From assembly GCA_021810565.1 (NCBI GenBank), contig JAJZIM010000022.1, forward strand, positions 1 through 43,171: a stretch of 43,171 bases of DNA, read 5' to 3'. The translations under genes were made by a program, and so were the position numbers. The notes below the pieces were generated by a model. That model was not told the DNA's origin. It saw only the letters and a program-made list of their open reading frames with translations, and did no database searches. Positions 4,366 to 43,167 of this stretch are shown piece by piece (position 1 is the first letter of the stretch; each line of letters starts with the position of its first letter). The DNA comes from Bacillota bacterium (GTDB taxonomy: Bacteria; Bacillota; Sulfobacillia; JAJZIM01).

Positions 4366-4385
4366 ACCGGGGGGAGGAACTGCTC

Positions 4386-7809: not shown

Positions 7810-7847
7810 GCCCCCGGGTCGCGTCCGAAGGTCTTCGGCTCATCGTG

Positions 7848-21481: not shown

Positions 21482-21634
21482 CCGTTCGGTGAAGCCGGAT
21501 GGTGGGTTGAGCGCCCTTCGCCGACCACGTGGCCGAGAGGTTCAAGAAAATGAGGCTGGGCGCTGAACGCGCCCCGAGCCTTGTGCCGTGGTCGAGTCAT
21601 TGGGACAGCGTCAGTTTAGGGGGGGGTTGGAGAA

Positions 21635-23266: not shown

Positions 23267-23285
23267 AAGAAAAGGAGGAGCAGTA

Positions 23286-23963
23286 ATGCCGAGCATGGAC
23301 GAGTACTGTGTACAATTGAAGCAGGCCGTGGTCGACTATAATCGGGACCAGGCCGTAGCGATCGCTCAGACTATCGTTGACCAAGGACTGGACGCCCAAA
23401 AGGCGGTGTTCGATGGGTTGATCGCCGGGATGCAGGTGGTTGGTAAGTACTACGAGGATCAGTACTACTTCGTCCCAGAGATGCTCATGTGCGCGCAGGC
23501 CCTGTATTCTGCGCTGGATATCCTGAAGCCACACATGCCTCAGACGGACTTGGGGTTGAAGGGACAGGTAGTGATGGGTGTGGTTCAGGGAGACGTTCAT
23601 GATATTGGCAAAAACATCGTTAAATTGATGTTCGAGGTGGCAGGTTTCGAGGTGAAAGACCTGGGACGGGACGTGCCGCTGGACGATTTCGTCAGGGAGC
23701 AGCTAAGCAGCGATGCGGACATGGTCTGCTTGTCCGCGATGATGACCACCACCATGACCGGTATGCGGGAGGTAATCCGTAAGATCAAGGAAAAGAATCC
23801 TAAGTGCCGCATCATGATCGGCGGAGCGCCGGTGACGGAGGAGTTGGCCAGCAAGTGGGGTGCCGACGGCTACGCACCCGATGCCAACAACGCGCTCCGG
23901 GAGGCCATCGCCATGGTGTCCAGCCTCCATGAAATGTATCAGCAGGCCCAGGCCCGCGACTAG
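23286..23963 (+). CDS. corrinoid protein (MtaC/MtbC-like)
   Basis: Methyl carrier with a helical cap domain (about 1-90) and a B12-binding Rossmann domain. Seen: the lower-ligand motif GDVHDIGKN (Asp103, His105, Gly108), LGRDVPLDDFV, SAMMTTTMTGM and MIGGAPVTEE with GADGYAPDA at the end, all canonical. 225 residues. ATG at 23286 has AAGGAGG upstream; the frame is open to 23250 without a better start. Paralogous to the corrinoid protein of island 2 at 39.5 kb. Confidence 0.95.
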   Translation: MPSMDEYCVQLKQAVVDYNRDQAVAIAQTIVDQGLDAQKAVFDGLIAGMQVVGKYYEDQYYFVPEMLMCAQALYSALDILKPHMPQTDLGLKGQVVMGVVQGDVHDIGKNIVKLMFEVAGFEVKDLGRDVPLDDFVREQLSSDADMVCLSAMMTTTMTGMREVIRKIKEKNPKCRIMIGGAPVTEELASKWGADGYAPDANNALREAIAMVSSLHEMYQQAQARD

Positions 23964-23977
23964 AAGCGCCGCCAGCC

Positions 23978-24538
23978 GTGGCTACCTTCACGGAGATCCA
24001 TCGCTTGGATCGGGAAGCGGTGGTGCGGGATTACCTGCAGTTGGCGCGAGATGCGGCGATACAAGCGGTGGCGCTCTCCGCTGGTAAGATCCGGGTACGA
24101 TCCTCCGTTCGCATGAAGTGCCAAATTCCGCTGTGTGAGCATTACGGGACCAACCGGGCGTGTCCGCCGCTTATACCGGAATTGGCAACCTTCCGCGAGG
24201 CACTCCAGGACTATGAATGGGCCTTCCTGCTGGGCTTAGTGGTGTCGCGGGAGGCCGTCCGCGGACACGAGCCGGAACTCGCTCTGGATGACTTTGTCTG
24301 CCGCTCGGAAAACTGGGCCCTGGGGCGGGGCTACTACTGGGGTTTTGGACTGACCGGTGGTGCTTGCTACCGCTGCCCACGCTGCGAGATAAGTCGGCCC
24401 TGTCCCTTCCCCTTCCGGCAACACCCCAGTCCTGAGGGCATGGGCATAGACATAACCATGCTGGCGCGGGAGGTAGGCTGGGCGGTGGACTGGCCGCCGA
24501 AGGACCGGGTCCACTACTTTGCCCTGTTCTTTCTTTAG
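23978..24538 (+). CDS. DUF2284 Cys-rich putative metal-binding protein
   Basis: A 186-residue protein with two Cys clusters: MKCQIPLCEHYGTNRACPP near residue 50, the DUF2284 hallmark, and CYRCPRCEISRPCPFPF near 130-145, which looks like an iron-sulfur or zinc site. DUF2284 genes are often found beside UroD-type methyltransferases and corrinoid proteins, as here, but the role is unproven; transferring electrons to the corrinoid is one possibility. The GTG start at 23978 lacks a good ribosome binding site, but it lies 14 bases after the corrinoid gene and translation may be coupled. Confidence 0.75.
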   Translation: MATFTEIHRLDREAVVRDYLQLARDAAIQAVALSAGKIRVRSSVRMKCQIPLCEHYGTNRACPPLIPELATFREALQDYEWAFLLGLVVSREAVRGHEPELALDDFVCRSENWALGRGYYWGFGLTGGACYRCPRCEISRPCPFPFRQHPSPEGMGIDITMLAREVGWAVDWPPKDRVHYFALFFL

Positions 24539-24615
24539 AACCGGGATTCCGGGTCGGCTGTCCGACGTATCTTGGGTGCAAGGAGGTGACGCTCCCACCT
24601 CGGGAGCGCTGGTTC

Positions 24616-25677
24616 ATGGAAGAAACGATGAACGCGCGGCAGCGGGTGTTGGGACTGCTGACCCGCCGTCCGGTGGACGGGCCCGCTTGCTTCAGCGGCA
24701 TGGGTAATGTGACCACCGCCGGGCTGGAGCGCTTGGAGTGCAGCTTTCCCTCGGTGCACGCCGACGCGGTCAAGATGGCCGATCTCGCGGCTACCTCTTT
24801 CGAGTTGTTCGGCTACGAGTCGGCGGTGGTACCCTTCGACCTGTGCGTGGAGGCGGAGGCCTTGGGCTGCGCCATCAACACCTATCAGGACGTACCGCAG
24901 TTGCTCTACCCGACCATCCGGGCCAAGGCCATTCCGCGCACCGAGGATATGGCCGATTTCCAGGTGGCCGCCGACTTCTTGGAGCGGGGAAGACTCCCGG
25001 TGGTCCGAGAGGCCTTGCGCCGGCTGCGACAGGGCTACGGCGACCGTTTGGCCGTGGGCAGCTACATGCTGGGGCCCTTCACTCTGGCGGGCCAATTGGT
25101 GGAACTCGATCAGCTGTTCCTGTTGTCCTTGTCTGACCGCAGGTTGGTGGAGGAACTGCTGCACAAGCTGACTGCGGCGGTCATCGCCGTGGGACTGAGC
25201 TACCGGGAGGCTGGGGCGGACTTTCTGACGGTGCGGGAGATGGGGGCCGCCACGGACATCCTGAGTCCTCGGGCCTTCCAAAGCTTGATCCAGCCCTGCC
25301 TGCGGGAGGTGGCCGCCAGCCTGCCACCGCCGCGGGTCCTGCATATCTGCGGCTCCACTGACAAGATCGTGGCCTTGATGGCGGAGTGCGGCTTCGATGC
25401 GATCAGCGTGGAGCCCAAGAACAACGTGCGGGCCAGTCGGGAACTAGTGCCTCCCGAGACCTTGATCTTCGGCAACCTGGATGCCTTCAAACTCTTGGTG
25501 CACGGTACGCCGGCGCAGGTCACCCAGGCGGTGGAGGAAGCCTTGGAGGCGGGTGTGGATGCGGTGTGGCCCAGCTGCGACATCTGGCCGGAGGCCAAGG
25601 TGGAGAATCTGGATGCCATGGTGGCGGCCACGCGCCAAAGAGGCGCAGAACTGTGGTGGCGTAACCACGGTAGCTGA
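24616..25677 (+). CDS. UroD-fold corrinoid methyltransferase, second of island 1
   Basis: A 353-residue MtaA/MT1-family protein. Seen: ARQRVLGLLTRRPVDGPACFSGMGNV, VGSYMLGPFTLAGQL, VREMGAATDILSPRAF, zinc ligands His243 and Cys245 in LHICGSTDK, and a third Cys in VWPSCDIWPEA. It is closely similar to the gene at 38.4 kb in island 2. The ATG at 24616 has GGGAG ten bases upstream; ATG 24628 is also possible. A very strong AAGGAGGTGA at 24580-24589 has no start codon at a suitable distance and lies beside short inverted repeats (GGAGGTG/CACCTC and CGCTCCC/GGGAGCG). That could mean structural control of translation. Confidence 0.87.
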   Translation: MEETMNARQRVLGLLTRRPVDGPACFSGMGNVTTAGLERLECSFPSVHADAVKMADLAATSFELFGYESAVVPFDLCVEAEALGCAINTYQDVPQLLYPTIRAKAIPRTEDMADFQVAADFLERGRLPVVREALRRLRQGYGDRLAVGSYMLGPFTLAGQLVELDQLFLLSLSDRRLVEELLHKLTAAVIAVGLSYREAGADFLTVREMGAATDILSPRAFQSLIQPCLREVAASLPPPRVLHICGSTDKIVALMAECGFDAISVEPKNNVRASRELVPPETLIFGNLDAFKLLVHGTPAQVTQAVEEALEAGVDAVWPSCDIWPEAKVENLDAMVAATRQRGAELWWRNHGS

Positions 25678-25686
25678 ATATCGGAC

Positions 25687-25716
25687 TTGCCTCGGAGCCG
25701 CCCGGCATGCTAGATT
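25687..25716 (+). promoter_or_regulatory. candidate promoter before the CobW-like gene
   Basis: TTGCCT (25687-25692), 18-base spacer, TAGATT (25711-25716) preceded by TGC. It lies in the 120-base gap between the methyltransferase genes and the CobW/CbbQO block, about 80 bases before the start at 25798. Confidence 0.45.
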
Positions 25717-25797
25717 AAAACGAGAGAGACGACGCAACATTCAGTAATGATGGCGCGGTGTCTAACTTAATGCGACTTGGTGAGGAGTTGAGCACGT

Positions 25798-26418
25798 TTG
25801 GGCGAAACGGATCCCGCAGGGCGCAGCCCTGAAGGCTTGCGCTTGGTAGCCATCGTGGGTTTTCTGGGTTCAGGGAAGACGACCCTGCTGCTGGCGGCGG
25901 CCAGACAGCTGACGGAACAAGGGGAGCGGGTGGCCATCATCGTGAACGAGGCGGGCCAGGTGCCCATAGACGGTGCGGTGCTGGCTGCCGGCGGGACGCG
26001 GGTGAAGGAGATCTTCGGCGGCTGCTTCTGCTGCCAATTGGCGGGGAGTTTGGCCGTCGGCCTGGGGGAGATCAAGGCGGAACTAGGGGTGGGATGGGTC
26101 TTCGTGGAACCCTCCGGCCTGGCAGATCCGGAGCAGATCGAGGAATTGGTGGGGATGGAAGGCATGTCCAGGCGGCAGGTGGGCCTGATCGATCTGGACC
26201 GGATCGAGATGCTGCGGGAGGTGCTGACGCCGCTGCTGCACAAGACGGTGCGTACCGCCGACTTGGTTCTGCTCAACAAGGCCGATTTGGTTGGACCGGC
26301 GGTGGTTGAGGATGCCCTCGAATACATCCGTGGGGTGGACCATGGGGCGGTCGTGCGGGTGGTGTCCGCGCAACAGGGCCTGCCGCCGGAAGTGCTGGCG
26401 GAGGTATTGGGTCGATGA
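25798..26418 (+). CDS. CobW/COG0523-type GTPase (putative metallochaperone)
   Basis: A 206-residue G3E GTPase lacking the usual C-terminal CobW domain (family members are often 300-400 residues). Seen: Walker A GFLGSGKTT (21-29), IVNEAGQVPIDG, the metal-binding CxCC motif GGCFCC (Cys76, Cys78, Cys79), Walker B-like VFVEPSGLADP, and the guanine motif LNKADLV. Such proteins deliver metals such as zinc, cobalt or iron to client enzymes. TTG start with GAGGAG eleven bases upstream. It overlaps the next gene by four bases, and that gene may supply the missing second half. Confidence 0.85.
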   Translation: MGETDPAGRSPEGLRLVAIVGFLGSGKTTLLLAAARQLTEQGERVAIIVNEAGQVPIDGAVLAAGGTRVKEIFGGCFCCQLAGSLAVGLGEIKAELGVGWVFVEPSGLADPEQIEELVGMEGMSRRQVGLIDLDRIEMLREVLTPLLHKTVRTADLVLLNKADLVGPAVVEDALEYIRGVDHGAVVRVVSAQQGLPPEVLAEVLGR

Positions 26419-26810
26419 AGGAGGCGTCCTTCAGCACTCTGTCCGTAAGGCTGCCTCCGGCTGTGGATGAGCAGCCCAGCCTTCTGGAGGAACTGGTGGG
26501 AGAGTTGGTTGGGGATTTGGGTGCCTTCCTGGGTCACGTCAAAGGCTACGCCCGCGGGGGAGACCTGATGTGGTACGCGTCCTCCACGGGCAAGCGCACC
26601 ACCGTCACCAAAGTACACGCGGCGGAGGCTCAGGTGCGACCGGAGATGGCGATCACGGCGATCTTGTGGTCTTATCCAGCGGATCGTCTGACGAGCATCG
26701 CCGGGCGCTGGGAGGCTAGCCTAAAAGAGCGATATGGGGAGACGCGGATTGAGGTGGTCTCGGATATCCACGCCGGGCACCATCACCATGGAAACGCTTC
26801 AGCGGAATAG
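26415..26810 (+). CDS. small protein with histidine-rich C-terminus, partner of the CobW-like GTPase
   Basis: 131 residues, no family recognised with confidence. Seen: an N-terminal half with FSTLSVRLPP, EELVGELVGDLGAFLGHVKGYARGG, a middle strand-rich part (WYASSTGKRTTVTKV, MAITAILWSYPADRLTSI) and a terminal IHAGHHHHG that could bind metal. It starts four bases inside the GTPase gene. The pattern suggests the split-off C-terminal part of a CobW system (such domains often end in His tracts), but this is inference. Confidence 0.7.
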   Translation: MKEASFSTLSVRLPPAVDEQPSLLEELVGELVGDLGAFLGHVKGYARGGDLMWYASSTGKRTTVTKVHAAEAQVRPEMAITAILWSYPADRLTSIAGRWEASLKERYGETRIEVVSDIHAGHHHHGNASAE

Positions 26811-31818: not shown

Positions 31819-31839
31819 GGGGCGGCGTGGCCGGAGTCG

Positions 31840-32033
31840 GGGCACCCTCGGGCTCCAGCCGGACGCGGTCGGCCACGGGGCGGGCAGGCCGAGTCCCACG
31901 CTGGCCGCCTTGATCAGGATCGCGGGGAGGAGGCAGTTCACGCGGCGGTCGGTGCTTTCGGTATACTGCCGGGGTGAAGAAGGCGTCCAAGAGGCCATGA
32001 GTTCACGGCCGGTTGGCTGCGTTCGGGCTCGCC
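31840..32033 (-). pseudogene. decayed, frameshifted copy of the DUF6951-like gene
   Basis: Read on the minus strand the two frames give LLDAFFTPAVYRKHRP and then NCLLPAILIKAASVGLGLPAP, matching LLDTFFTSAVYKSADRH and DCPVLAAMIKAAMVELGMAAP of the intact gene at 33138-33497. The N-terminal third is missing or unrecognisable, and a frameshift separates the two matching parts. Confidence 0.7.
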
Positions 32034-32222
32034 TTTGCCGGCAGGGTGCGCGAGGAGTGGCTCCGAGTCGATCTTTGCCTTCGAGGAAGGCCAAGCCCTA
32101 TTCGATCGGGGCGAGGCGCGCTGGTGGTGAATGAGCTCACCTCCCGGTATCCGAAGGCCGCGGCGGTGCGGGAGGAGGCGGAAGACGAGGCCTTGGCCTG
32201 TACGACTTTCCTCTTGGCTTCA
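32034..32222 (+). mobile_element. remnant of an IS256/Mutator-type transposase
   Basis: Two adjacent frames look like the C-terminal part of an IS256-family transposase: SIFAFEEGQALFDRGEARW (about 32068-32124), then after a frameshift NELTSRYPKAAAVREEAEDEALACTTFLLAS (about 32128-32222). This resembles the family pattern ...RW...L..RYPKAA.VLEEAEEDALAF.AFP. The DDE active site and both ends are gone, and the remnant stops inside the 3' end of the MscS gene. Assignment is from the amino-acid pattern only. Confidence 0.5.
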
Positions 32223-33137: not shown

Positions 33138-33497
33138 CTAGTGGCCGGCGGTGCGGGCCTGGGCGGGGTGCTCCCCGGCCTCGTGCTCCAACCGGATGCT
33201 GGCCGCCACGGGAGCGGCCATGCCGAGTTCCACCATGGCCGCCTTGATCATGGCGGCGAGCACGGGGCAGTCCACGTGGCGGACGTGCCGGTCGGCGCTT
33301 TTATACACCGCCGAGGTGAAGAAGGTGTCCAAAAGGCCGCGCTTCCAGGACAGGTTGGCCAGGTCCGGGTTCATGTCCGTAAGCATGGTGCAGGGGGAAT
33401 GCACCACCAGGTCGAGGTTGCCGTCGGGACGCCGGGTGGCGTGAACGGATGCATGGTAGCCGCAGGCGCCGGCGTGGACCAGGGCACGGGTGGCCAT
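33138..33497 (-). CDS. DUF6951-like small protein
   Basis: A 119-residue protein. Seen: VHAGACGYHASVHATRRPDGNLDLVVHSPCTML, TFFTSAVYKSADRHVRHVDCPVLAAMIKAAMVELGMAAPVAASI. Cys13 in CGY, Cys36 in SPC and the Cys of DCPV fit the pattern of the DUF6951 family, small proteins I associate with UroD-type methyltransferase gene neighbourhoods. The function is unknown; the three Cys suggest metal or corrinoid handling. ATG at 33497 has GAGGTGAT upstream; a GTG at 33506 in the same frame would overlap that site. It lies directly downstream of the TetR gene in one operon. Confidence 0.7.
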   Translation of the reverse strand: MATRALVHAGACGYHASVHATRRPDGNLDLVVHSPCTMLTDMNPDLANLSWKRGLLDTFFTSAVYKSADRHVRHVDCPVLAAMIKAAMVELGMAAPVAASIRLEHEAGEHPAQARTAGH

Positions 33498-33507
33498 GGG
33501 GATCACC

Positions 33508-34197
33508 TCATTTTGCGGGAGGCTGGGGTTGGTCCAACTGGGGCGAGGCGCGGCAGTACACCGCGTGGTACCAGACGCCGGTCAGGGTCTGAATGACCTC
33601 CTCCGGGTCGTGCTCCTGGCCGTAGGAGCAGGTGAGGTAGGCCTGGTGCTCGATCATACCGCCCAGGATGTAGGCCATGAGATCCAGATTGATGGGGCGG
33701 GTGAGCCCGGCGGCGTGGGATTCGGCCAGGTGGGTGCGGATGCCCAGCAAGAGCTTCTCCCGGAGCTTCCGCCGCTCCGCGGCCACCTCCTCGTTGTAGG
33801 CGGAGACCTCGAAGAGCACCTTGACGATATCGCGGCGGCGCCAGGCGGCCTGGAGAAAGCCGCGCACCGTGCCCTCGATGGCGACTAGGACGTCGCGGCT
33901 GCGCCAGGGCGCCTCGATCTCCGCGGACATCTCCTCCAGGAACTCCTCCACCAGGCTGCGGAAGATGTCCAGCTTGTTCTCGAAGTAGATGTAGAAGGCG
34001 CCGCGGGAAAGCTGCGCCTCCCGGGTGATGTCATCCACCGTGGCGTCCAGGAAGCCCTTGGCGTCGAACACCTTCCGGGCGGCCTTCAAGAGCTTGTAGC
34101 GCGTGCGTTGACTGCGGAGATAGCGGCGACCGCTAGTCTTCTTGGCTACGTCGTCGTAGGTGCCAACCTTCAGCTCGACCCCTCCCGCCGTCCACAT
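33508..34197 (-). CDS. TetR/AcrR-family transcriptional regulator
   Basis: 229 residues from the ATG at 34197. Seen: LLKAARKVFDAKGFLDATVDDITREAQLSRGAFYIYFENKLDIFRSLVEEF, the TetR helix-turn-helix, then a helical ligand domain with a conserved YILGGMIEHQAY. An upstream in-frame GTG at 34251 lies before the predicted promoter, and TTG/GTG codons at 34206/34203 have GGAGG upstream of the -10 box, which would not be in the transcript. It is divergent from island 2 and probably represses it and itself; a palindrome lies near the island 2 start. Confidence 0.9.
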   Translation of the reverse strand: MWTAGGVELKVGTYDDVAKKTSGRRYLRSQRTRYKLLKAARKVFDAKGFLDATVDDITREAQLSRGAFYIYFENKLDIFRSLVEEFLEEMSAEIEAPWRSRDVLVAIEGTVRGFLQAAWRRRDIVKVLFEVSAYNEEVAAERRKLREKLLLGIRTHLAESHAAGLTRPINLDLMAYILGGMIEHQAYLTCSYGQEHDPEEVIQTLTGVWYHAVYCRASPQLDQPQPPAK

Positions 34198-34206
34198 TTT
34201 CACCAA

Positions 34207-34235
34207 ATTATAACCTCCGGGTGCTAACCTGACAA
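34207..34235 (-). promoter_or_regulatory. strong promoter of the TetR gene, predicted near-leaderless
   Basis: Minus strand: TTGTCA (34230-34235), 17-base spacer, TATAAT (34207-34212), the best promoter match in the window. Transcription would begin two to four bases before the ATG at 34197. Confidence 0.7.
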
Positions 34236-34357
34236 CCGATTCGAGCTTCACCGGAAAAAAGGAGCGAGATTCCTTGTGCGCCGCCGCCTGCGGGCGGGCG
34301 AGGCGGCTGGACGGGCCTCAGGGTGATTTTAGCCCGGCCCATTCCCTCTTCAGCCGC

Positions 34358-34400: not shown

Positions 34401-34422
34401 AGTGACACGGACGTCACTGTCA
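34401..34422. promoter_or_regulatory. candidate TetR operator
   Basis: AGTGAC (34401-34406) and GTCACT (34413-34418) form a perfect 6-bp inverted repeat with a 6-base spacer. TGACA/TGTCA (34403-34407 and 34418-34422) give a second overlapping one. It is placed just downstream of the predicted start of island 2 transcription, where a bound TetR dimer would block it. Confidence 0.5.
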
Positions 34423-34443: not shown

Positions 34444-35481
34444 ATGGCGACGCCGCGGCAGGTGGTGGAGCAGGCCATGGCCCTCGAGGTTCCCGAGCGA
34501 CAGCCGGCCTGCATCTACGGCGGGGGCATGTGGACCTTGCGCCAGGCCGGGGAGACCTTCGCGGGACTCTCGGAGGATCCGGCACGCATGTCCGAGGTCA
34601 TCGCCCGGGTGGCCCGGGACGTGGGATCGGATATCGTGTACACCGGCTCCGGGTACAACAACGTGCACGTGGCGGCCTTGGGCGGTCGGATCAAATACCG
34701 GCAGATCGGCGCCCCCGATCTGGAGGAGCCGTTGGTGGGGAGCATCGAGGACCTGGCCGGACTCAAGTTGGAGCGGGTGGACGAGTACGTCACGGTGCGC
34801 ACGGTGCAGGAGACGGCCCGGCGGGTGGCGGCCCAGATCGGGCAGGAGTACATGGTCACCATGACCTCGTGGGGCCCCTTCAGCCTCGGAGCGCAGATCC
34901 TGGGGGTGGAGCAGACCATGCGGGGCTGCTTCCGCCAGCCGGAACTGGTGCGGGCGGTGGTGGATTTCGCCGCCGAGTTCATCCGTGTCTTCTACGCTCC
35001 GGTGGTGGAGGACGGCACCCTAAAGCTGGTATCTCTGGCCGACCCCACGGCGGCGGGTAGCCTGATCTCCAAGAAGCATTACGCGCAATTCGCCTTGCCG
35101 CCCCTGCAGCGTTTAGCGGAGTATTTCCGCTCCCGGGGGGCGGCCACTCTTTTGCATATCTGCGGCGACACCCAGGACCGGCTGGAGCTTTTGACCGAGA
35201 GCGGGGCGCAGATCGTGAGCATCGACACGGCGGTGGAGCTGGCGGCGGCCAAGGCCGCCTTTACCGGCAAGACCTGTCTGGGCGGCAACCTGGATCCGGT
35301 GCACGTGCTGCAGCAGGGCACTCCGGAGGAGGTCGTCCGCGGGGCGCGCCGGTGTCTGGACGATGCCGCGGCGGGGGGCGGCTTCATCCTCATGCCCGGC
35401 TGCGACACGCCGCCCCTGACCCCGCGGGAGAACGTGGACGCCTTCCTGCACACGGCTTTCGAATACCGGTTGCAGGGATGA
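34444..35481 (+). CDS. UroD-fold corrinoid methyltransferase, first of island 2
   Basis: A 345-residue MtaA/MT1-family TIM-barrel protein. Seen: an N-terminal RQVVEQAMALEVPERQPACIYGGG, the SWGPFSLGAQIL segment, zinc ligands His238 and Cys240 in LLHICGDTQD, and a Cys in LMPGCDTPP near the C-terminus. It is more distant from the genes at 24.6 and 38.4 kb than they are from each other, so it probably acts on another methyl donor or is the other half-reaction enzyme. ATG with AAGGGGG upstream. First gene of island 2, behind the TetR-controlled promoter. Confidence 0.88.
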   Translation: MATPRQVVEQAMALEVPERQPACIYGGGMWTLRQAGETFAGLSEDPARMSEVIARVARDVGSDIVYTGSGYNNVHVAALGGRIKYRQIGAPDLEEPLVGSIEDLAGLKLERVDEYVTVRTVQETARRVAAQIGQEYMVTMTSWGPFSLGAQILGVEQTMRGCFRQPELVRAVVDFAAEFIRVFYAPVVEDGTLKLVSLADPTAAGSLISKKHYAQFALPPLQRLAEYFRSRGAATLLHICGDTQDRLELLTESGAQIVSIDTAVELAAAKAAFTGKTCLGGNLDPVHVLQQGTPEEVVRGARRCLDDAAAGGGFILMPGCDTPPLTPRENVDAFLHTAFEYRLQG

Positions 35482-35500
35482 ATTCGGGGAGGTAGGGAAG

Positions 35501-37435
35501 TTGGCGAAGCATCTGGTCGTGTTTCAGCCCTCGGGCCGCCGGGCGGAGGTGGAGGAGGGCACCACCCTGATGGACGCCGCCCGCAACATGGGGGTGGACA
35601 TCGAGACCATCTGCGGCACCAAGCACACCTGCGGGCAATGCAAGGTGCAGATCCAGGAGGGGGAGTTCGCCCGGGAAGGGATCATTTCCAGCATGGAGCA
35701 CGTCTCGGCGCTCAATCCCGACGAGGTCAAGTTCCTCCGGCGGGTCAAGGAGCCCAACATGCGCCTGGCCTGCGTGGCCGAGGTGCGCGGCGACGTGGTG
35801 GTCTTCGTCCCGGAGCGCAGCCGGGCCGGGCGCCAGGTGGTGCGCAAGGCCGCCCGGGAGCTGGTGGTGGAGGTGGCTCCGGCCGTGCTCAAGTACTACG
35901 TGGAGCTCATCCCGCCCACCCTGCGGGATACCCTGGGCGATCAGGAGCGACTCTTGGACGCCCTGCACGCGGTGTATGGTCTTGAGGGCCTGTACCTGGA
36001 CTACCGGGTGCTCAGGGAGCTGTCGGACATCCTGCGCGCCAGCGAGTGGAAGGTCACCGTCTCGGTGTGGCGGGGGCGCGAGGTGCAGCGGGTGGAGAGC
36101 GGCTTCGTGGACGATCTCTACGGCGTGGCCGTGGATGTGGGCACCACCACCGTGGCGGGCTACCTCACCGATCTGAAGACCGGCAAGGTCGTGGCCACCG
36201 AGTCGATGATGAACCCCCAGGTGCGCTACGGCGAGGACGTCATGTCCCGCATCACCTACGCCCAGGAGCATGAGGGCGGCCGGGAGCTTTTAACCACGGC
36301 CATCCGGGAGGGTCTGGACCAGATCTTCACCAACCTGGCCGCCCGCAAGCGCCTGAAGCCCACGGACATCTCCGAGGTGGTCCTGGTGGGCAACACCGCC
36401 ATGCACCACCTGTTCGTGGGGCTGGATCCGGTGTACCTGGGCAAGGCCCCCTTCCCGCCGGTGCTGCACCACTCCCTGGACGTGCGGGCCCGGGACATGG
36501 GACTTTCCTCCCTGCACCCGGCAACTAACGTGCATGTGCTGCCCAACGAGGCGGGCTTCGTGGGGGCGGACAACGTGGGGGTGCTGCTGGCCGAGGAGCC
36601 TTACAACCAAGACGAGATCTGGCTGATCATCGACATCGGCACCAACGGGGAGATCATCCTGGGCAACCGGGAGAAGCTAATCTCCTCCTCGTGCGCCACC
36701 GGGCCGGCCTTCGAGGGCGCCCACATCAAGTTCGGGATGCGGGCTGCGCCGGGGGCCATCGAGCGGGTGCGGATCGCGGTGGGCGGCCGGGACGTGTCCT
36801 ACCGCCTCATCGCGCCGCCCAGTCGGCGGGAGGAGGTGCGGGCCAAGGGGATCTGCGGCTCCGGGATCATCGACGCCGTGGCGGAGATGTATCGGGCGGG
36901 GGTCCTCCTGCCCAGCGGTCGCTTCGCCAAGGACCTAGACACCCCGCGGTTGCGCCGGGGCGAGGACGGACCGGAATTCGTGCTGGCCTGGGCCGACGAG
37001 ACGGACGTGGGCGCGGACATCACCATCACCCAAGCGGACGTGCGCGCTCTGCAGTTGGCCAAGTCCGCCATGTATGCGGGGATCAAGCTGATGATGCGCC
37101 GGCTGGGAGTGGAGCAGGTGGACCGCGTGATCCTGGCCGGGGCCTTCGGCAGCTACATCGACAAGGTGCAGGCCATGACCATCGGGCTGTTCCCCGACTG
37201 CGACTTGGAGAAGGTGTACGCGGTGGGCAACGCCGCCGGGGACGGCGCGCGCATCGCCCTGGTCAACGCCGCCAAACGGGACGAGGCGGATCGGGTGGCC
37301 CGGGAGGTGGAGTACATCGAGCTGACGGTGGAGCCGGACTTCGAGCGGGTGTTCATGGAGGCCATGTACTTCCCGCACATGAAGGACAAGTTCCCGCACC
37401 TGGAGGAGGTGTTGGGGCGCGCGGTGGGAGCCTGA
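35501..37435 (+). CDS. corrinoid activation protein, ASKHA/ferredoxin type (RACE)
   Basis: A 644-residue reductive activator of corrinoid enzymes: it restores Co(II) to Co(I) using ATP and an iron-sulfur cluster. Seen: an N-terminal plant-type ferredoxin domain with Cys38, Cys44, Cys47 and Cys91 (GTKHTCGQC pattern), a linker and middle domain (100-210), then the ASKHA domain with VAVDVGTTTVAGYL, VLVGNTAMHHLFVGLD, LIIDIGTNGEI, CATGPAFEGAHI, KGICGSGIIDA, VILAGAFGSYID and GNAAGDGA. Matches bacterial O-demethylase activating enzymes rather than the archaeal RamA (which has two 4Fe-4S clusters). TTG start with GGGAGG upstream. The only such gene in the window. Confidence 0.94.
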   Translation: MAKHLVVFQPSGRRAEVEEGTTLMDAARNMGVDIETICGTKHTCGQCKVQIQEGEFAREGIISSMEHVSALNPDEVKFLRRVKEPNMRLACVAEVRGDVVVFVPERSRAGRQVVRKAARELVVEVAPAVLKYYVELIPPTLRDTLGDQERLLDALHAVYGLEGLYLDYRVLRELSDILRASEWKVTVSVWRGREVQRVESGFVDDLYGVAVDVGTTTVAGYLTDLKTGKVVATESMMNPQVRYGEDVMSRITYAQEHEGGRELLTTAIREGLDQIFTNLAARKRLKPTDISEVVLVGNTAMHHLFVGLDPVYLGKAPFPPVLHHSLDVRARDMGLSSLHPATNVHVLPNEAGFVGADNVGVLLAEEPYNQDEIWLIIDIGTNGEIILGNREKLISSSCATGPAFEGAHIKFGMRAAPGAIERVRIAVGGRDVSYRLIAPPSRREEVRAKGICGSGIIDAVAEMYRAGVLLPSGRFAKDLDTPRLRRGEDGPEFVLAWADETDVGADITITQADVRALQLAKSAMYAGIKLMMRRLGVEQVDRVILAGAFGSYIDKVQAMTIGLFPDCDLEKVYAVGNAAGDGARIALVNAAKRDEADRVAREVEYIELTVEPDFERVFMEAMYFPHMKDKFPHLEEVLGRAVGA

Positions 37436-37460
37436 GGATCGTGGTATCGCACAGGGAGGG

Positions 37461-38411
37461 ATGAAGATGGTGGAGCCGAAGCTTTGCCGCATCGGCAGAC
37501 TGGAGGTGGGCGGTGCCCCGGGGGAGCGACCGGCGCTCCTCATCGCCTCCATGTTCCACGGCAAGGACAAGATGCTGACCAGCCGGCGCCGGGGCACCTT
37601 TGACCGGGAGTCGGCCGGACAGGCCCTGCGGCGGCTGGAAGAGTTGTCCGAGATCACGGGAGTCCCGGCCATGGTGGCCATGGTATCCAACTGGGAGGAC
37701 GAGTTCCGCCGCTACGTGGAGTTCCATCGGGAGCACACGGACCTTCCCTTCGCCTGCGACGTGTGGTTGGTCAAGCGCCGCCTGGCCTGTGCCCGGGTGG
37801 TGGCCGAGTTGGGCCTGCAGGAAAACTTCCTGTACAACAGCATCACCCCCTGGGACGCCAAGGACGTCCCCTTGGCCGAGCAGGTGCGGGAGTTGAAAGA
37901 GCTGGGGATTCGCCACGTGGTGGTGCAGGCCTTCGACGAGGCGGACACCAGCGCGGCCGGACGGATCAAGTCCCTGGACGCGCTGATGGAGGAGGTGGCC
38001 AAGGGAGACTTCCGCAGCATCCTGGTGGACACTAGCTGCATGAGCCTGCCCGCCCTGTCCTTCAGCCTGGAGGCCAACCGCCTGATCAAGGAGCGTTACG
38101 GCTTTCCCGCCGGCCAGGCCACGGCCAACGGCACCTACATGTGGCGCAAGGAGCTGACCGAGCGCCTGGGGGAGGGGCACTTCCCGGCGGCCGACGCGGC
38201 GGCGGAGGCCCTGTCTGCCTTCCACCACAGCGACTTCATCTTCTCCGGACCGGTGGTCGGCCAGGAGCGGGTGGCGGTGGCCACGGCGGTGGCCGCCGTG
38301 CTCAGTGCCGGCGTGCGCTACCAGACCACGGGGATGCAGCCGGGCCCCGGCCATCCTCTGGAGCGCTTGTTTCCCGATTTCGCCCGGCAGCTGGTGCCGG
38401 TGGCGGTTTAG
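37461..38411 (+). CDS. MtrH-family methyltransferase (corrinoid to tetrahydrofolate, MT2 type)
   Basis: 316 residues of the MtrH/MtgA family, TIM-barrel enzymes that move a methyl group between a corrinoid protein and a tetrahydropterin. Seen: the start VGGAPGERPALLIASMFHGKDKM (family pattern GE.P.LL.GS.FY..), FDRESAGQALRRLEELSEITGVPAMVAMVSN, FACDVWLVKRRLACARV, YNSITPWD, VVQAFD, ILVDTSCMSLPA and FPAGQATANGTYMWR. In a bacterium the acceptor is presumably tetrahydrofolate. Sits between the activator and the second UroD gene, completing the three-component system. ATG with GGGAGG just upstream. Confidence 0.86.
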   Translation: MKMVEPKLCRIGRLEVGGAPGERPALLIASMFHGKDKMLTSRRRGTFDRESAGQALRRLEELSEITGVPAMVAMVSNWEDEFRRYVEFHREHTDLPFACDVWLVKRRLACARVVAELGLQENFLYNSITPWDAKDVPLAEQVRELKELGIRHVVVQAFDEADTSAAGRIKSLDALMEEVAKGDFRSILVDTSCMSLPALSFSLEANRLIKERYGFPAGQATANGTYMWRKELTERLGEGHFPAADAAAEALSAFHHSDFIFSGPVVGQERVAVATAVAAVLSAGVRYQTTGMQPGPGHPLERLFPDFARQLVPVAV

Positions 38412-38423
38412 GAGGTGGCGCGG

Positions 38424-39449
38424 ATGGCGACGGCGACCAAGACGGCCCGCGAGCGGGTGATGGCCCTCTTCGCGAGGGAGCGGCAGACCCCGGTGCCGGT
38501 GTTCTCCGGCATGGGCAACGTGACGGTGTACGGCCTGGAGGACGCGGGCATCGGCTTCGCCCAGGTGCACGGCGACGCCGAGGCGATGGCCCGGGCGGCG
38601 GCCTCGAGCTACGAGCGCTTCGGCTACGAGGCGGTGGTGGTGCCCTTCGATCTGGGGGTGGAGGCCGAGGCCATGGGGCGCACCCTGAATACCTATGCCT
38701 CCTCGGATGGCATCCTCTACCCGACGGTGCAGAACAAGCTGCCGGCGACGGCGGACAACTTCCAGGTGCCCGCGGACCTGGAGCTCCGCGGGCGCATACC
38801 CTTGGTAGCTCAGGCCATCCGCCTGGTGAAGGAGCGCCTGGGGGAGCAGGTGGCGGTGGGCAGCTATGTGCTGGGCCCCTTCACCCTGGCTGGGCAGGTG
38901 CTGGAGCTGGACCAACTGCTGAAGTTGGCCGGCAAGGATCAGACCCAGATGCACGTGATCCTGGAGCGGGCGGGAGAGGTGGCCGCCCGGGAGGCCGAGG
39001 CCTACCGGGCAGCGGGCGCCGACTTCGTCACGGTGCGGGAAATGGGGGCGGCCTCGGACATCCTGAGCCCGCGCATGTTCCGCAACCTGATCCAGCCTCA
39101 TCTGAAGGAAGTGTTCGCGCAGGTCGGCGGCCCCACGGTGCTGCATATCTGCGGCAGCACCCAGAACATCGTGGAGATGATGGCCGACTGCGGTGCCACC
39201 GCGGTCAGCGTGGACCAGAAGAACGACCTGGCGGCCTCCCGGGCGACGCTGGGACCGGAGAAGCTGCTTTTCGGCAACCTGGATCCATACAAGGTGCTGG
39301 TGCAGGGAACGCCGGAACAGGTGCGCGAGGCGGTGCGCAATTGCGTGGCGGCGGGCGCCGACGCGGTGTGGCCAGGCTGCGACATCTGGCCCACGGTGCC
39401 GGCCGAGAACATGCAGGCGATGATGGACGCGTCGCGGGAACAGGCGTAA
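38424..39449 (+). CDS. UroD-fold corrinoid methyltransferase, second of island 2
   Basis: 341 residues, MtaA/MT1 family. Seen: ARERVMALFARERQTPVPVFSGMGNV, VPFDLGVEAEAMG, VGSYVLGPFTLAGQV, VREMGAASDILSPRMF, zinc ligands His241 and Cys243 in LHICGSTQN and a third Cys in VWPGCDIWP. Very similar over its whole length to the gene at 24616. ATG at 38424 has GGAGG eight bases upstream. Followed 15 bases later by its corrinoid protein. Confidence 0.88.
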   Translation: MATATKTARERVMALFARERQTPVPVFSGMGNVTVYGLEDAGIGFAQVHGDAEAMARAAASSYERFGYEAVVVPFDLGVEAEAMGRTLNTYASSDGILYPTVQNKLPATADNFQVPADLELRGRIPLVAQAIRLVKERLGEQVAVGSYVLGPFTLAGQVLELDQLLKLAGKDQTQMHVILERAGEVAAREAEAYRAAGADFVTVREMGAASDILSPRMFRNLIQPHLKEVFAQVGGPTVLHICGSTQNIVEMMADCGATAVSVDQKNDLAASRATLGPEKLLFGNLDPYKVLVQGTPEQVREAVRNCVAAGADAVWPGCDIWPTVPAENMQAMMDASREQA

Positions 39450-39464
39450 GGAGGAGGATGGGGG

Positions 39465-40148
39465 ATGGCGGATCGTTTTCAGGAGTTGCTGGAGGAACTG
39501 CGTCAGGGAGTCACGGAGTACGACGAGGAGCGGGTGAAGGTTGCGGCCCAGGCGGTGCTGGATGAGGGGTTCGACGCCTACGACGCGGTGATGAACGGGC
39601 TGGCCGCCGGCATGGAGGAGGTGGGAAGGCTCTTCGGGGCCAACGAATATTTCGTGCCCGAGGTGCTCATGTGCGCCGACGCCCTGTACGGCGGGTTGGA
39701 GATCCTGCGCCCCCACATTGAGGTGGATCCCTCGCGCCAGGTCAAGGGCGCCGTGGTCATCGGCACCGTGGAGGGGGACGTGCACGACATCGGCAAGAAC
39801 CTGGTCAAGTTGATGTTCGAGATCGCCGGGTTCACCGTCCACGACCTGGGGCGGGACGTGCCTTTGGAGAAATTCGTGGAGGAGGTGCTCTCCACCGACT
39901 CCGACTTCCTGTGCATGTCGGCCATGATGACCACCACCATGGGGGGCATGAAGCAGGTCATCGACCAGGTGCGCCAGAAGAACCCCAACGTCAAGATCAT
40001 GGTGGGCGGAGCTCCCCTCACCGGCGATCTGGCCCAGCGGTGGGGTGCCGACGGCTACGGCAAGGACGCGCCCAATGCCTTGCAGGAGGCCCTGCGCATG
40101 GTGGGCTCCCTGCGGGAGATGCACCAGGAGGCGGCCAAGGGAGGCTAG
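39465..40148 (+). CDS. corrinoid protein (MtaC/MtbC-like) of island 2
   Basis: 227 residues: a helical cap domain (about 1-90) and a B12-binding domain with GDVHDIGKN (Asp105, His107, Gly110), LGRDVPLEKFV, SAMMTTTMGGM, MVGGAPLTGD and GADGYGKDA. Clear paralogue of the corrinoid protein at 23286. It carries the methyl group between the UroD-type and MtrH-type enzymes and is the client of the RACE protein. Confidence 0.95.
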   Translation: MADRFQELLEELRQGVTEYDEERVKVAAQAVLDEGFDAYDAVMNGLAAGMEEVGRLFGANEYFVPEVLMCADALYGGLEILRPHIEVDPSRQVKGAVVIGTVEGDVHDIGKNLVKLMFEIAGFTVHDLGRDVPLEKFVEEVLSTDSDFLCMSAMMTTTMGGMKQVIDQVRQKNPNVKIMVGGAPLTGDLAQRWGADGYGKDAPNALQEALRMVGSLREMHQEAAKGG

Positions 40149-40154
40149 AGGGCG

Positions 40155-40820
40155 GTGCTGGAGCGGGAGATCACCCAGGCGGCCCTGGCCGCCGGAGCCG
40201 AGGCGGTGGGCTTCGGGGACGTCTCGGAGGGCCTATATCCCGAGTTCGGGCCCTTGATCCGGGCGGTGTCCCTGGGTTGCGGCCTGGAGGCGTCGGGGGG
40301 GCGGGTGCGCTTCCCCGATGCGGCGGCCACGGCGCGGTTGGCCACCGCCGCCCGGGCGGTGGCCGGGGTCCTGCGCCGGGCGCGGCGGCGCTTCTTCATC
40401 CTCCCCGCGGAGCCGGTCCGACAGCCGTGCTACTGTGCCGCCCTGTATGACCGGTTCTCCCACAAGGTGGCCGCCACCTGTGCGGGGCTCGGCTGGATCG
40501 GCAAGAACGGCCTGTTGGTCAGCCCACAGCTGGGGCCCGCGGCGGTGTGGGCCACGGTGCTGACGGACGCTCCCCTGGCGGTGGGCGAGCCGATGCTCCA
40601 GGGCCGGTGCGGGAAGTGCGACGCGTGCCGGCGAGCCTGCCCCGCCCGGGCCATGCGCGGGCGGCAGTGGCGGCGGGGGATGCAGCTCACGGACCTGTTG
40701 GATCTGGACGCGTGCCGGCGGCATCTCGGCCGGCAGGCGGATCGGGAGTGCGGCCGCTGCATGGCCGCCTGTCCCTACAACTTTGCGGCGACGCCCCGCA
40801 AGCGGACGGCTTTGCGCTGA
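40155..40820 (+). CDS. short QueG-like protein with two 4Fe-4S motifs
   Basis: 221 residues. Seen: a DUF1730-like region with YDRFSHKVAATCAGLGWIGKNGLLVSPQLGPAAVWATVLTDAPL, very like the middle of epoxyqueuosine reductase, then two ferredoxin-type motifs, CGKCDACRRACPARAM and CGRCMAACPYN. QueG itself is a B12-dependent enzyme of about 350-380 residues with HEAT repeats; this version ends after the clusters. It lies seven bases after the corrinoid gene, so a role in electron transfer to a corrinoid is more likely than tRNA modification. GTG start with GGGAGG upstream. Confidence 0.78.
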   Translation: MLEREITQAALAAGAEAVGFGDVSEGLYPEFGPLIRAVSLGCGLEASGGRVRFPDAAATARLATAARAVAGVLRRARRRFFILPAEPVRQPCYCAALYDRFSHKVAATCAGLGWIGKNGLLVSPQLGPAAVWATVLTDAPLAVGEPMLQGRCGKCDACRRACPARAMRGRQWRRGMQLTDLLDLDACRRHLGRQADRECGRCMAACPYNFAATPRKRTALR

Positions 40821-40836
40821 GGAGGAGGTTTGCAAA

Positions 40837-41370
40837 GTGTCGAAGATCAACGGCTTGGAACCCGAACAGCTTGGCAAGATCGTGCAGGCGGTGAAGGAGA
40901 ATCCCGACCTGGGACGCACGGTTTGGCGCGCCCACAGCTATTGGCGGGAGGGCTTTCAGGTCCATAGCGAGATCCGCGGCTTCCACGTCCAGATGGACGA
41001 GCCGGCGGACCTGGGGGGCACCAACTCGGCGGCCAACCCGGTGGAGATGGTGCTGGCCTCCCTGGGCAGTTGCATGTGCATCGGCTACGCCATGAACGCG
41101 GCGGTGCTCGGGATCGAGATTCAAAAGCTGGACATCGAGCTGGAGGGCAACATCGACCTGCCCGGCTTCGTGGGCCTGGAGCCTCAGCCGGACCAGTCGC
41201 CGCTGCCCGGTTTCACCGAGATCCACGCCAAGGTGTACCTGAAGACCATGGCGCCCAAGGGCAAGGTCCAGGAACTGCACCAGCGGGTCTTCAGCACCTC
41301 CCCGGTGGGTACCACCCTGTCCAAGGAGGTCAAGATCATCCCGGAGTACGTGCAGCGCCGTTTCGTGTGA
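40837..41370 (+). CDS. OsmC-family protein
   Basis: 177 residues. Seen: an N-terminal helix, the HSEIRGFHVQMDEPADLGGTNSAANPVEMVLASLGSCMCIGYAMNA region containing the first peroxidatic-type Cys residues (SCMC), and a C-terminal VFSTSPVGTTLSKEV, where the usual second Cys of the (H-x-x-)C.V....P motif is missing. So it may not act as a classical hydroperoxidase. The GTG at 40837 follows GGAGGAGG by eight bases. Probably protects or accompanies the oxygen-sensitive corrinoid system; a hairpin follows it. Confidence 0.85.
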   Translation: MSKINGLEPEQLGKIVQAVKENPDLGRTVWRAHSYWREGFQVHSEIRGFHVQMDEPADLGGTNSAANPVEMVLASLGSCMCIGYAMNAAVLGIEIQKLDIELEGNIDLPGFVGLEPQPDQSPLPGFTEIHAKVYLKTMAPKGKVQELHQRVFSTSPVGTTLSKEVKIIPEYVQRRFV

Positions 41371-41398
41371 CGCCTTGAGGAAAGCCCGGGAGCGAGAA

Positions 41399-41430
41399 CG
41401 GGGGGCGTTGCCGCGCCCCCGGGCCATTTT
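41399..41430 (+). terminator. hairpin with T-run after the OsmC gene
   Basis: A GC-rich stem between 41399 and 41421 (CGGGGG arm against CCCCCG, with GCG/CGC inner pairs and one bulge), then CCATTTT. It may end most island 2 transcripts or reduce read-through into the last two genes. Confidence 0.5.
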
Positions 41431-41451
41431 CCACGGGAGGAGGCTTGGCGC

Positions 41452-41859
41452 GTGGAGCGGGCGGAGTTGGAACGGGCGCTGACGGGGCTGTTCGATGAAA
41501 GTAGTCTGGAGGACACGGCCCGGGCCATGGCGGAACTTTTGGAGGAGCGCTACGGGCCTTTGCCCTACATCCTGCGCTCCTTGCAGTCCGATCCCGAGGC
41601 CTTCATCGCGGAGGGTATGCGCCGCTTTCGCCTGGTCACCGGGGGGCGGTTGTCCCCCCGGGAGCGGGAAGCGGCGGCCCTGGCGGCGGCGGCGAGCCTG
41701 CATTGCGTTCCCTGCATCCGCACCCACCTGGAGCGGGGGCGGCGGGCGGGCTTCACCGAGGAGGAGTTGGGGGAGATCCTGCGGGTGGCGGCGGCCATGA
41801 GCGAGGCCGCGGTGCTGGCGGTGGCGGTGCGGCAGTTGGAGGGCGTGGAGGAGGAGTAG
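41452..41859 (+). CDS. AhpD/carboxymuconolactone decarboxylase-like protein
   Basis: 135 residues. Seen: LSPREREAAALAAAASLHCVPCIRTHLERGRRAGFTEEELGEILRVAAAMSEAAVLAVA, the CMD/AhpD domain with the CxxC redox pair (CVPC) and the downstream His. Such proteins are thiol peroxidase partners or, in some relatives, decarboxylases; with OsmC next door a redox role is likelier. GTG start preceded by GGGAGGAGG. Confidence 0.85.
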   Translation: MERAELERALTGLFDESSLEDTARAMAELLEERYGPLPYILRSLQSDPEAFIAEGMRRFRLVTGGRLSPREREAAALAAAASLHCVPCIRTHLERGRRAGFTEEELGEILRVAAAMSEAAVLAVAVRQLEGVEEE

Positions 41860-41862
41860 GGC

Positions 41863-43167
41863 GTGCGCTGGTGGGTGGTGGCGCTCCTGGGAGCGGCCTG
41901 GGGCCTGGCCTACATGGACCGCATCAACCTCTCGGTGGCGGCGCCCCTCTTGGCGCGCCACTTCCATCTGACCCCCATGGACCTGGGGGAGGTCATCGCC
42001 GCCTTCTCCCTGGTATATCCGGCGGCCCAATTGGCGGGGGGCAGCCTGGTGGATCGTCTGGGTCCCCGGCGCATGATCATCTTCACCGTGCTGTGGTTCT
42101 CCGCCTTCGGCGGGCTGACCGGGATGGCGTCCGGGTTGGGCACCCTGCTGTTGGTGCGGGTGCTCCTGGGGGCGGGGGAGGGCGCCGACTTTCCCGCCCT
42201 GTACAAGGCCAGCTCCAGCTGGTTCGCGGGGCGGGAGAGCGGCCGGGCCTCCAGCATCTGGATGTCGGCCATGGCTCTGGGGCCGGCCCTGGGCGCCGTG
42301 CTCACCACCTGGCTGATCGAGGCCGGCGGCTGGCGGGCGCCCTTTGTGGCATTCGCCGCCTTGGGTTTGCTCCTGGGGCTGGTCCTGATCCGCTTCCTGC
42401 GGGAGGGACCGCGACGGCACCACCCCTGGCCGGGCACCCCCTGGCCCTGGCGACGCGTGCTGTCCGACTACAATGTCTGGGCCTACGGACTCATCTACTT
42501 CGCCTTCAACCTGGCCTTCTACGGCTTCGTGGGATGGCTGCCCAGCTACCTGGTGCATGGGCGAGGGCTGCCTCTTGCCCAGGCCGGCCTGGTGACCTCC
42601 CTGCCCTATTGGGCCGGCGCGGTGGGCCTCCTGGCCGCGGGCTTCCTCTCCGACCGGTGGGGGCGGCGCCCCCTGGCTGCCGTCGGCTACGGGGCGGCGG
42701 CGGCCCTGCTTTTCTGGGTGGCCGTAGCGCCTGCGGGGCTCATGCCCTGGGTGCTGGCCATGGCAGGGTTCGCGCTGTACCTGTCCTTCGCGCCGTTGGC
42801 CGCCTTCATGCAGGAGGTGTTGCCTTACGGCTACCTGGGGCGGGGCATCGGGATCAGCATGTTCGTGGCCCAGTTGGGCTCCCTGGCCGGGCCGCTGCTC
42901 TTTGGCTACCTGGTGCAGACCGGCGGCGCCGGAGGGTGGCGGGACGGGTTCGGGCTGATGGTGGCGGGCCTGGCAGCCGCGGGGATCCTCACCCTGACCC
43001 TGCGGCGGGGACGGCGGCCGGTGCTGGTGCCCGACGGCTGGACCGCCGGTTCGGCCGCCTGGCCCGTGGTGCGCCGGCTGCCTCGGTGGGTCCGGGCGCC
43101 GGGGGCGGGGGGATTGACCGCCGGCGGGCCCCCGGTGTCCGACGGGCCGCGATGGGGGCCGGGCTGA
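41863..43167 (+). CDS. MFS transporter, anion:cation symporter-like
   Basis: 434 residues with about twelve membrane segments. Seen: GLAYMDRINLSVAAPLL in helix 1 (the DR.N motif of the ACS family, as in hexuronate, phthalate and 4-hydroxyphenylacetate carriers), GGSLVDRLGPRRM as the loop 2-3 signature, LGAGEGADFPALYKASSSWF, and a second DRWGRRP after helix 8. The C-terminal 50 residues are a Gly/Pro/Arg-rich tail without similarity to the family. GTG start three bases after the AhpD-like gene, with GGAGGAG upstream. It probably imports an organic anion, for example a methoxylated acid that feeds island 2; that link is inferred. Confidence 0.87.
   Translation: MRWWVVALLGAAWGLAYMDRINLSVAAPLLARHFHLTPMDLGEVIAAFSLVYPAAQLAGGSLVDRLGPRRMIIFTVLWFSAFGGLTGMASGLGTLLLVRVLLGAGEGADFPALYKASSSWFAGRESGRASSIWMSAMALGPALGAVLTTWLIEAGGWRAPFVAFAALGLLLGLVLIRFLREGPRRHHPWPGTPWPWRRVLSDYNVWAYGLIYFAFNLAFYGFVGWLPSYLVHGRGLPLAQAGLVTSLPYWAGAVGLLAAGFLSDRWGRRPLAAVGYGAAAALLFWVAVAPAGLMPWVLAMAGFALYLSFAPLAAFMQEVLPYGYLGRGIGISMFVAQLGSLAGPLLFGYLVQTGGAGGWRDGFGLMVAGLAAAGILTLTLRRGRRPVLVPDGWTAGSAAWPVVRRLPRWVRAPGAGGLTAGGPPVSDGPRWGPG

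Follow-up and report, generated by a model that had tools for sequence, protein, structure and literature searches.

The window analyzed here is a 43,171-bp stretch of DNA from a Bacillota bacterium of the Sulfobacillia (GCA_021810565.1), comprising the whole of one contig (JAJZIM010000022.1; C12) of a 3.18-Mb genome in 115 contigs, and its right-hand end holds an operon with the gene content of a corrinoid-dependent methyl-transfer system. All genes from position 34444 onward lie on the plus strand, beginning with a five-gene methyl-transfer set (34444 to 40148): a UroD-type methyltransferase of 345 amino acids (U34; 34444 to 35481; URO-D, 190.7 bits), a RACE corrinoid reductive activator (35501 to 37435), an MtrH-type methyl-corrinoid:tetrahydrofolate (H4F) methyltransferase, or MT2 (37461 to 38411), a second UroD-type enzyme of the MtaA/CmuA family with 344 amino acids (M38; 38415 to 39449; URO-D, 240.9 bits), and a corrinoid protein (39465 to 40148; B12-binding, 96.7 bits; B12-binding_2, 71.8 bits). 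These are followed by genes for a short QueG/RdhA-like protein with two 4Fe-4S motifs (40155 to 40820), an OsmC-like protein (40783 to 41370; 61.2 bits), an AhpD/CMD protein with a CxxC motif (41452 to 41859; CMD, 60.6 bits), and a major facilitator superfamily (MFS) transporter truncated at the contig end (41863 to 43171; MFS_1, 229.5 bits). Intergenic gaps are short, the longest being the 81 bases between the OsmC and AhpD genes. Divergent from the operon, on the minus strand upstream, are genes encoding a TetR-family regulator (33508 to 34251; TetR_N, 48.7 bits) and a small DUF6951 protein (33138 to 33506; PF22263, 75.1 bits). A sequence-only reading of the same DNA had placed the five methyl-transfer genes in one operon ending in OsmC, AhpD-like, and MFS genes, and domain matches bear this out for every gene; the QueG-like gene and the two upstream genes were additional to its list.

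That reading had bounded the operon at 34444 and 43167. The U34 frame may open at 34402 or 34444; a purine-rich stretch precedes the ATG at 34444, and the orthologue in a related locus (L018) starts at the same codon, so the left boundary is supported. The right boundary is doubtful. Bases 43041 to 43166 are identical to the reversed end of another contig, C29 (126 bases), from which the last five bases of the window (AGATC), which we guess to be adapter residue, differ. When the flanks are joined, the MFS frame reaches 43209 (448 amino acids) and its end shares an ATGA with the start of a third UroD gene (ATG at 43206), an overlap that would fit a real junction between the two contigs. The MFS stop at 43167 is therefore probably an artifact of the contig end, the true end lying beyond the window. 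On C29, the third UroD gene (341 amino acids) is followed by DUF7714 and, further on and on the same strand, by genes for an MFS transporter, a DsrE protein (43.9 bits), a NarI-like cytochrome b, and a Fer4+CCG (HdrD-like) protein truncated at the contig end. Since an opposite-strand reading lies between DUF7714 and the MFS gene, these genes may belong to separate units.

Family-level matches are consistent with the roles assigned to the methyl-transfer set. The MtrH-type protein scores 141.4 bits against PF02007 (cut-off, 22.8) and 280.9 bits against NF002142, under the cut-off of 287, and it is the sole MtrH match in its genome (E ≤ 0.001). The RACE protein combines a 2Fe-2S (Fer2) domain with RACo linker, middle, and C-terminal domains (the last at 324.5 bits), and the QueG-like protein reaches 53.9 bits with TIGR00276, below the cut-off of 200. 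The genome contains three MetF matches, as well as pieces of FTHFS at contig ends, so that methyl-H4F could be oxidized. Contig C32 (L013) has MetF and the beginning of FTHFS near one end and, toward the other (3452 to 7839), genes for a distant UroD, a corrinoid protein, a pterin-binding methyltransferase (PF00809), and RACE. Because MtrH, RACE, and a corrinoid protein share the operon and MetF and FTHFS occur in the genome, we read the system as demethylating a donor onto H4F, and the earlier claim that the operon holds the parts for this transfer, with a reactivator, is supported. We place much greater confidence in this machine of corrinoid protein, UroD-type methyltransferase (MT1), MT2, and RACE than in any class of substrate.

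A scan of named genomes recovered 56 related loci, 50 of which were used for neighborhood counts (the six weakest, L068 to L073, were excluded); many loci are cut at contig ends, and the counts are thus lower bounds. By best match, a second UroD gene was found in at least 36 of the 50 loci (counting any UroD whose best match was M38 or M24, a UroD encoded elsewhere in the window, and including that of L064, which falls outside the M38 clade), a corrinoid protein in at least 37, RACE in 34, MtrH in 30, and a QueG-like gene in 20. Further neighbors include DUF6951 (at least 18 loci), OsmC (9, the L019 copy being 73% identical), CobW (9), CCG (8), an SsuA-like binding protein (7), and FTR (5, four of them Nitrospinota), and relatives of the C29 DsrE, cytochrome b-like, and Fer4+CCG genes occur in 6, 7, and 10 loci, respectively. 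In L041, the two halves of an ABC binding protein (12403 to 13494) match SsuA/NMT1 profiles with their positions exchanged, resembling a circular permutation. Beside a U34-type gene of L037 lies one for a MetF-like protein that scores below the cut-off. Second UroD, corrinoid protein, and RACE together accompany the U34-type gene in 32 of the 50 loci, with MtrH in 22 of the 32; by NCBI names, these core loci belong to Nitrospirota (10), Bacillota (7), Chloroflexota (6), Nitrospinota (5), Spirochaetota (1), and Methanobacteriota (1), with 2 unassigned. L018 repeats the order DUF6951-TetR/UroD-RACE-MtrH-UroD-corrinoid-QueG at 55 to 85% identity. Judging from this conserved order and from the 32 core loci, the grouping of these genes is more than chance, and the operon is no one-off but one of a set of related uncharacterized clusters in Nitrospirota, Nitrospinota, Chloroflexota, Bacillota, a spirochete, and archaea. 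Within the window's own class, the U34 enzyme was found in only 2 of 154 genomes (1e-40). Sample titles of many loci refer to subsurface, sediment, or hydrothermal settings, and no description of an MtrH-bearing cluster appeared among the matches listed from open-license PMC literature.

The distal genes of the operon were also compared with the 50 loci. Neither the window MFS nor its AhpD protein had a match there at 1e-8, and we rejected the former as a conserved cluster gene. At least 31 loci hold a CMD protein of a different subfamily with the motif SPRC; the window AhpD has CVPC, and its identity with this conserved gene was likewise rejected. The uptake of a substrate suggested by the sequence-only reading nevertheless retains some support, from the ATGA overlap of the MFS and third UroD genes, from the MFS gene of C29, from an MFS gene inside the L019 cluster, and from contig C96 (L011; 338 to 4006), where genes for an MFS transporter, a U34 paralogue (50%), and a regulator of the PucR type adjoin.

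The predicted active sites of the UroD enzymes bear on the substrate. In alignment columns, U34, M38, and the C29 enzyme all show a His-Cys-Cys zinc-site pattern, as do the M24, U22, C96, and C32 enzymes, MtaA, CmuA, and three Mlp proteins of Acetoanaerobium noterae; M24 and U22 are encoded in a second related set in the window (22202 to 26810, plus strand; U22, corrinoid protein, DUF2284, M24, CobW), which is without its own MtrH or RACE and whose corrinoid protein is 57% identical to that of the operon. Among UroD proteins of the related loci (87 of 89 aligned; two shorter than 300 amino acids were excluded), the pattern occurs in 86, the sole exception being a member of the M38 clade (L037, 2365 to 3414) with Asn-Ser-Ser in place of all three ligand residues. 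The U34 ligand-type residues, H238, C240, and C320, are invariant in 25 sequences. His-Cys-Cys has been linked to S-methyltransferases and carboxylates to O-methyltransferases, and selenide methylation, in the methylating direction, was assayed for one His-Cys-Cys enzyme (PMC10418091). Given this site in U34, M38, the C29 enzyme, and 86 of 87 relatives, a sulfur or selenium substrate is suggested.

The same site argues against O-demethylation of methoxylated aromatics, in which the MFS protein would import an aromatic acid. The gene architecture is that of the mto operon as described in the available part of PMC8630106 (two UroD-type MT1, a corrinoid protein, an MtrH-like MT2, RACE, and MFS), which made the earlier hint of an aromatic acid reasonable, and aromatic-acid transporters are among the weak NCBIfam matches of the window MFS, although every one of those matches scores well under its cut-off. 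However, in none of U34, M38, and the C29 enzyme is a Cys ligand replaced by the carboxylate or noncoordinating residue that would mark an O-demethylase (PMC10418091), and at 341 to 345 amino acids, the size of MtaA, they are shorter than MtoB1/2 at 47 to 48 kDa (PMC8630106, available part) or CdmB at 429 amino acids. A better O-demethylase candidate may be found on contig C2 (L012) of the same genome, where a UroD with His-Asp-Cys adjoins a corrinoid protein (5395 to 7224, minus strand). We consider an aromatic substrate highly doubtful for the operon, with the reservation that our tree was built without MtvB, OdmB, or MtoB.

His-Cys-Cys does not by itself single out sulfur, since the chloromethane enzyme CmuA has the same site, and haloalkane demethylation is an alternative. 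In such a pathway, as in cmu and mec, the UroD enzyme would present chloromethane or a similar halide to attack by Co(I), and MtrH would pass the carbon to H4F; the mec cassette, as far as the accessible part of PMC9768040 describes it, combines like parts. A quick tree of 80 rows, with a thinned choice of U34-type sequences and long-branch warnings, placed CmuA in a wider group holding U34 (support, 86), with uncertain placement of CmuA and the other long rows (the C29, C32, C2, and U22 enzymes). In that tree, though, U34 falls in a clade of 30 rows (SH-aLRT, 99) and M38 joins M24 in a clade of 33 rows (SH-aLRT, 100), both separate from CmuA, MtaA, and one type 1 mlp cluster; MecC and MecE were not among the rows. 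MtaA joins one A. noterae Mlp (96), and the other two Mlps pair (97) within a wider group that includes CmuA (84). Similarity to CdmB is weak for U34 (33.1 bits) and was not detected for M38 at 1e-3, and the presence of uptake genes, MFS in the window and ABC in 7 of 50 loci, is easier to reconcile with a nonvolatile compound. Taken together, we regard a haloalkane as an unlikely substrate, albeit the least unlikely of the alternatives.

Among family models, TIGR01463 (MtaA/CmuA) matches M38 at 255.3 bits, above its cut-off of 235.4, and U34 at 160.2 bits, below it. The nearest solved structure for both enzymes is the coenzyme M methyltransferase MtaA, which also points toward sulfur or selenium: the AlphaFold model of U34 (pLDDT, 94.7) matches MtaA (4ay8) with Z = 42.7 and 1.9 Å over 331 residues, ahead of UROD in second place (Z = 38.0). 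Resemblance to a thiol-methylating enzyme, shared by all UroD enzymes here, would also suit a flow in reverse, in which the methyl group of methyl-H4F travels through MtrH and the corrinoid protein to a thiol, sulfide, or selenide, serving detoxification or carrier synthesis. The selenide assay in the methylating direction (PMC10418091) is in keeping with this, and thiol/disulfide chemistry is a possible role for the HdrD-like and cytochrome b-like genes. Consumption is a better match, however, for uptake genes and three UroD enzymes, and FTR (formyl-tetrahydromethanopterin) near the cluster in 5 of 50 loci fits methyl oxidation, so that we consider this reverse flow unlikely.

A sulfur or selenium substrate is further suggested by sulfur-type neighbors, namely, DsrE, cytochrome b-like, and HdrD-like genes on C29 and the SsuA-like protein in 7 of 50 loci, and by an association with SelB. 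SelB exceeds its cut-off in 26 of the 31 genomes with a U34-type enzyme. Within the Nitrospirota phylum, SelB (E ≤ 1e-72) is present in 127 of 295 genomes, including 42 of the 44 with U34 and 85 of the 251 without. The association is strong but confounded, and we have dropped the notion that it proves a role for selenium. CdhC/AcsB was not found in the window's genome and occurs in 21 of the 31 genomes with the enzyme (one a partial match), for which reason the Wood-Ljungdahl pathway was dropped as a general sink.

The DUF6951 gene is a near-perfect companion of the U34-type enzyme in Nitrospirota. By counts that ignore kinship, 44 of the 295 genomes have the enzyme (E ≤ 1e-90), 44 have DUF6951, 43 have both, and 250 have neither; in 34 of the 43, the two lie on one contig within 8.7 kb. 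Of 14 control genomes, that of Methanosarcina acetivorans alone contains DUF6951. C15, C39, H77, and C80 of DUF6951 are invariant in 16 sequences, and the C15-C39-C80 spacing is similar, by counting, to C37-C63-C106 of Escherichia coli IscU. Foldseek hits to its model (pLDDT, 85.5) were weak, the top 11 all being IscU/ISCU (E, 0.01 to 0.08), and VIA Z scores for IscU-type proteins were 5.0 to 6.2, a level where unrelated folds also appear. Alignment to IscU by hhalign gave probabilities of 0.1% and 0.0%, and a profile search of the PDB returned no IscU. Homology to IscU, favored by no more than comparable cysteine spacing and a weak similarity of fold, was therefore rejected. It is conceivable, if quite unlikely, that the cluster serves salvage, with up to three UroD enzymes moving methyl groups to folate from an organic S- or Se-methyl compound brought into the cell, DUF6951 (as an IscU-like three-cysteine acceptor), OsmC, and DsrE carrying the freed sulfide or selenide, and the HdrD-like and cytochrome b proteins handling thiol redox. 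On that reading, DUF6951 would represent a novel type of chalcogen acceptor, linked in both bacteria and archaea to demethylation by corrinoid systems. No paper on DUF6951 was among the matches listed from open-license PMC literature. On the minus strand at 31829 to 32059, a stretch 35% identical to DUF6951 appears to be a degraded second copy.

Between the TetR/DUF6951 pair and U34 lies an imperfect palindrome, TGACACGGACGTCACTGTCA (34403 to 34422), a candidate operator for the TetR protein. A similar palindrome occupies the same place in L018, where TetR is 55% identical and also in the same place (TetR was found in 1 of the 50 loci). A search pattern built from these two sites recurs nowhere else in the window when up to three mismatches are allowed.

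Altogether, we lean modestly toward the operon serving S- or Se-methyl demethylation onto H4F. RACE, possibly with the QueG-like 4Fe-4S protein as its electron carrier, would keep the corrinoid protein as Co(I), and the predicted His-Cys-Cys zinc sites would hold a methylated thio- or selenocompound by its sulfur or selenium atom and allow its methyl group to pass to Co(I). Several UroD enzymes might act on different or successive methyl groups, MtrH would transfer the methyl group to H4F for oxidation through MetF and FTHFS or for biosynthesis, and the MFS protein may import the methylated compound or export the product. The gene content and order, the ligand pattern, the predicted fold, the orthology, and the co-occurrence are observations of this analysis, and from them the catalysis, its direction, the substrate class, the zinc, and the uptake are inferred. 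Besides the His-Cys-Cys site of CmuA, several observations weigh against this account. MtrH is absent from the Nitrospinota loci (0 of 5) and from half of the Chloroflexota core loci (present in 3 of 6), so that H4F is not the acceptor in all of them. SelB falls short of its cut-off in 5 of the 31 genomes (L022, L023, L028, L030, and L058), 3 of them archaeal, and its link to the enzyme is uncorrected for kinship or anaerobic life. DsrE occurs in only 6 of 50 loci, the window AhpD is not of the CMD family conserved elsewhere, and the join to C29 was made from the ATGA and the 126-base overlap rather than from sequencing reads. We know of no enzyme from the U34 or M38 clade that has been assayed, and the earlier view that the sequence does not reveal the substrate still holds. 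If a sulfur or selenium substrate is correct, these little-known groups would possess a pathway for using methylated sulfur or selenium compounds in competition with methanogens; in any case, two linked enzymes and DUF6951, a small family of no known function, are now available for direct testing.

Elsewhere in the window, cobalamin genes (CobB/CbiA, CbiD, CbiG, and CobA) lie at 2.3 to 19 kb. By eye from the list of open reading frames, CobA (18398 to 18967) has partial copies at 19467 to 19919 and about 21616 to 21927. Two adjoining small genes at 20562 to 21481 resemble, by eye, a nucleotidyltransferase/HEPN pair.

Several characterized systems resemble the operon in part. Mto shares two UroD-type MT1 (MtoB), a corrinoid protein, an MtrH-like MT2 (MtoA), RACE (MtoD), MFS, and a regulator, and it differs in MtoB size and zinc-site pattern (PMC8630106, available part). 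The mec and Cmu/Cdm systems likewise join a UroD-type MT1 to a corrinoid protein and an H4F-dependent MT2 (available parts of PMC9768040 and PMC13222342). However, CmuA (617 amino acids) is fused to its corrinoid domain, whereas the window genes are separate, and CdmB is longer and weakly similar; mec, described as combining the UroD-type MT1s MecC, MecE, and MecI with a corrinoid protein, MT2, RACE, and a transporter, has a two-component regulator rather than TetR (PMC9768040, available part). The mtpCAP genes for methylmercaptopropionate in Methanosarcina acetivorans, which we compared by description and not by MtpA sequence, also include a corrinoid protein, an MtaA-like methyltransferase, MFS, and a regulator; their acceptor is coenzyme M, and neither MtrH nor RACE is named in the available part of PMC7374477. 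The type 1 mlp clusters (PMC10418091) resemble the window in having at least two MtaA-like proteins with His-Cys-Cys, a corrinoid protein, and Ram/RACE in one run, together with frequent SelB. A type 1-like cluster of A. noterae (NZ_CP154629.1; L074, 9855 to 15520) has three UroD genes, a corrinoid protein, and RACE, with no MtrH matched in the surrounding 30 kb, and the U34 and M38 clades stand apart from its three Mlps. The definition calls for a codirectional run, within 2 kb, of at least two MtaA-like genes and genes for a corrinoid protein and Ram, an arrangement found at 34444 to 40148 on the plus strand, and for no H4F methylase homologue within 20 kb; MtrH at 37461 to 38411 breaks the latter rule, and we therefore rejected membership in type 1. 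It also asks for an Mlp2 and an Mlp3, a point on which U34 and M38 were compared with the three A. noterae Mlps. The operon is probably an MtrH-bearing relative of the mlp clusters, and the non-type-1 mlp clusters, under 5% of 367 (PMC10418091), may hold further relatives.

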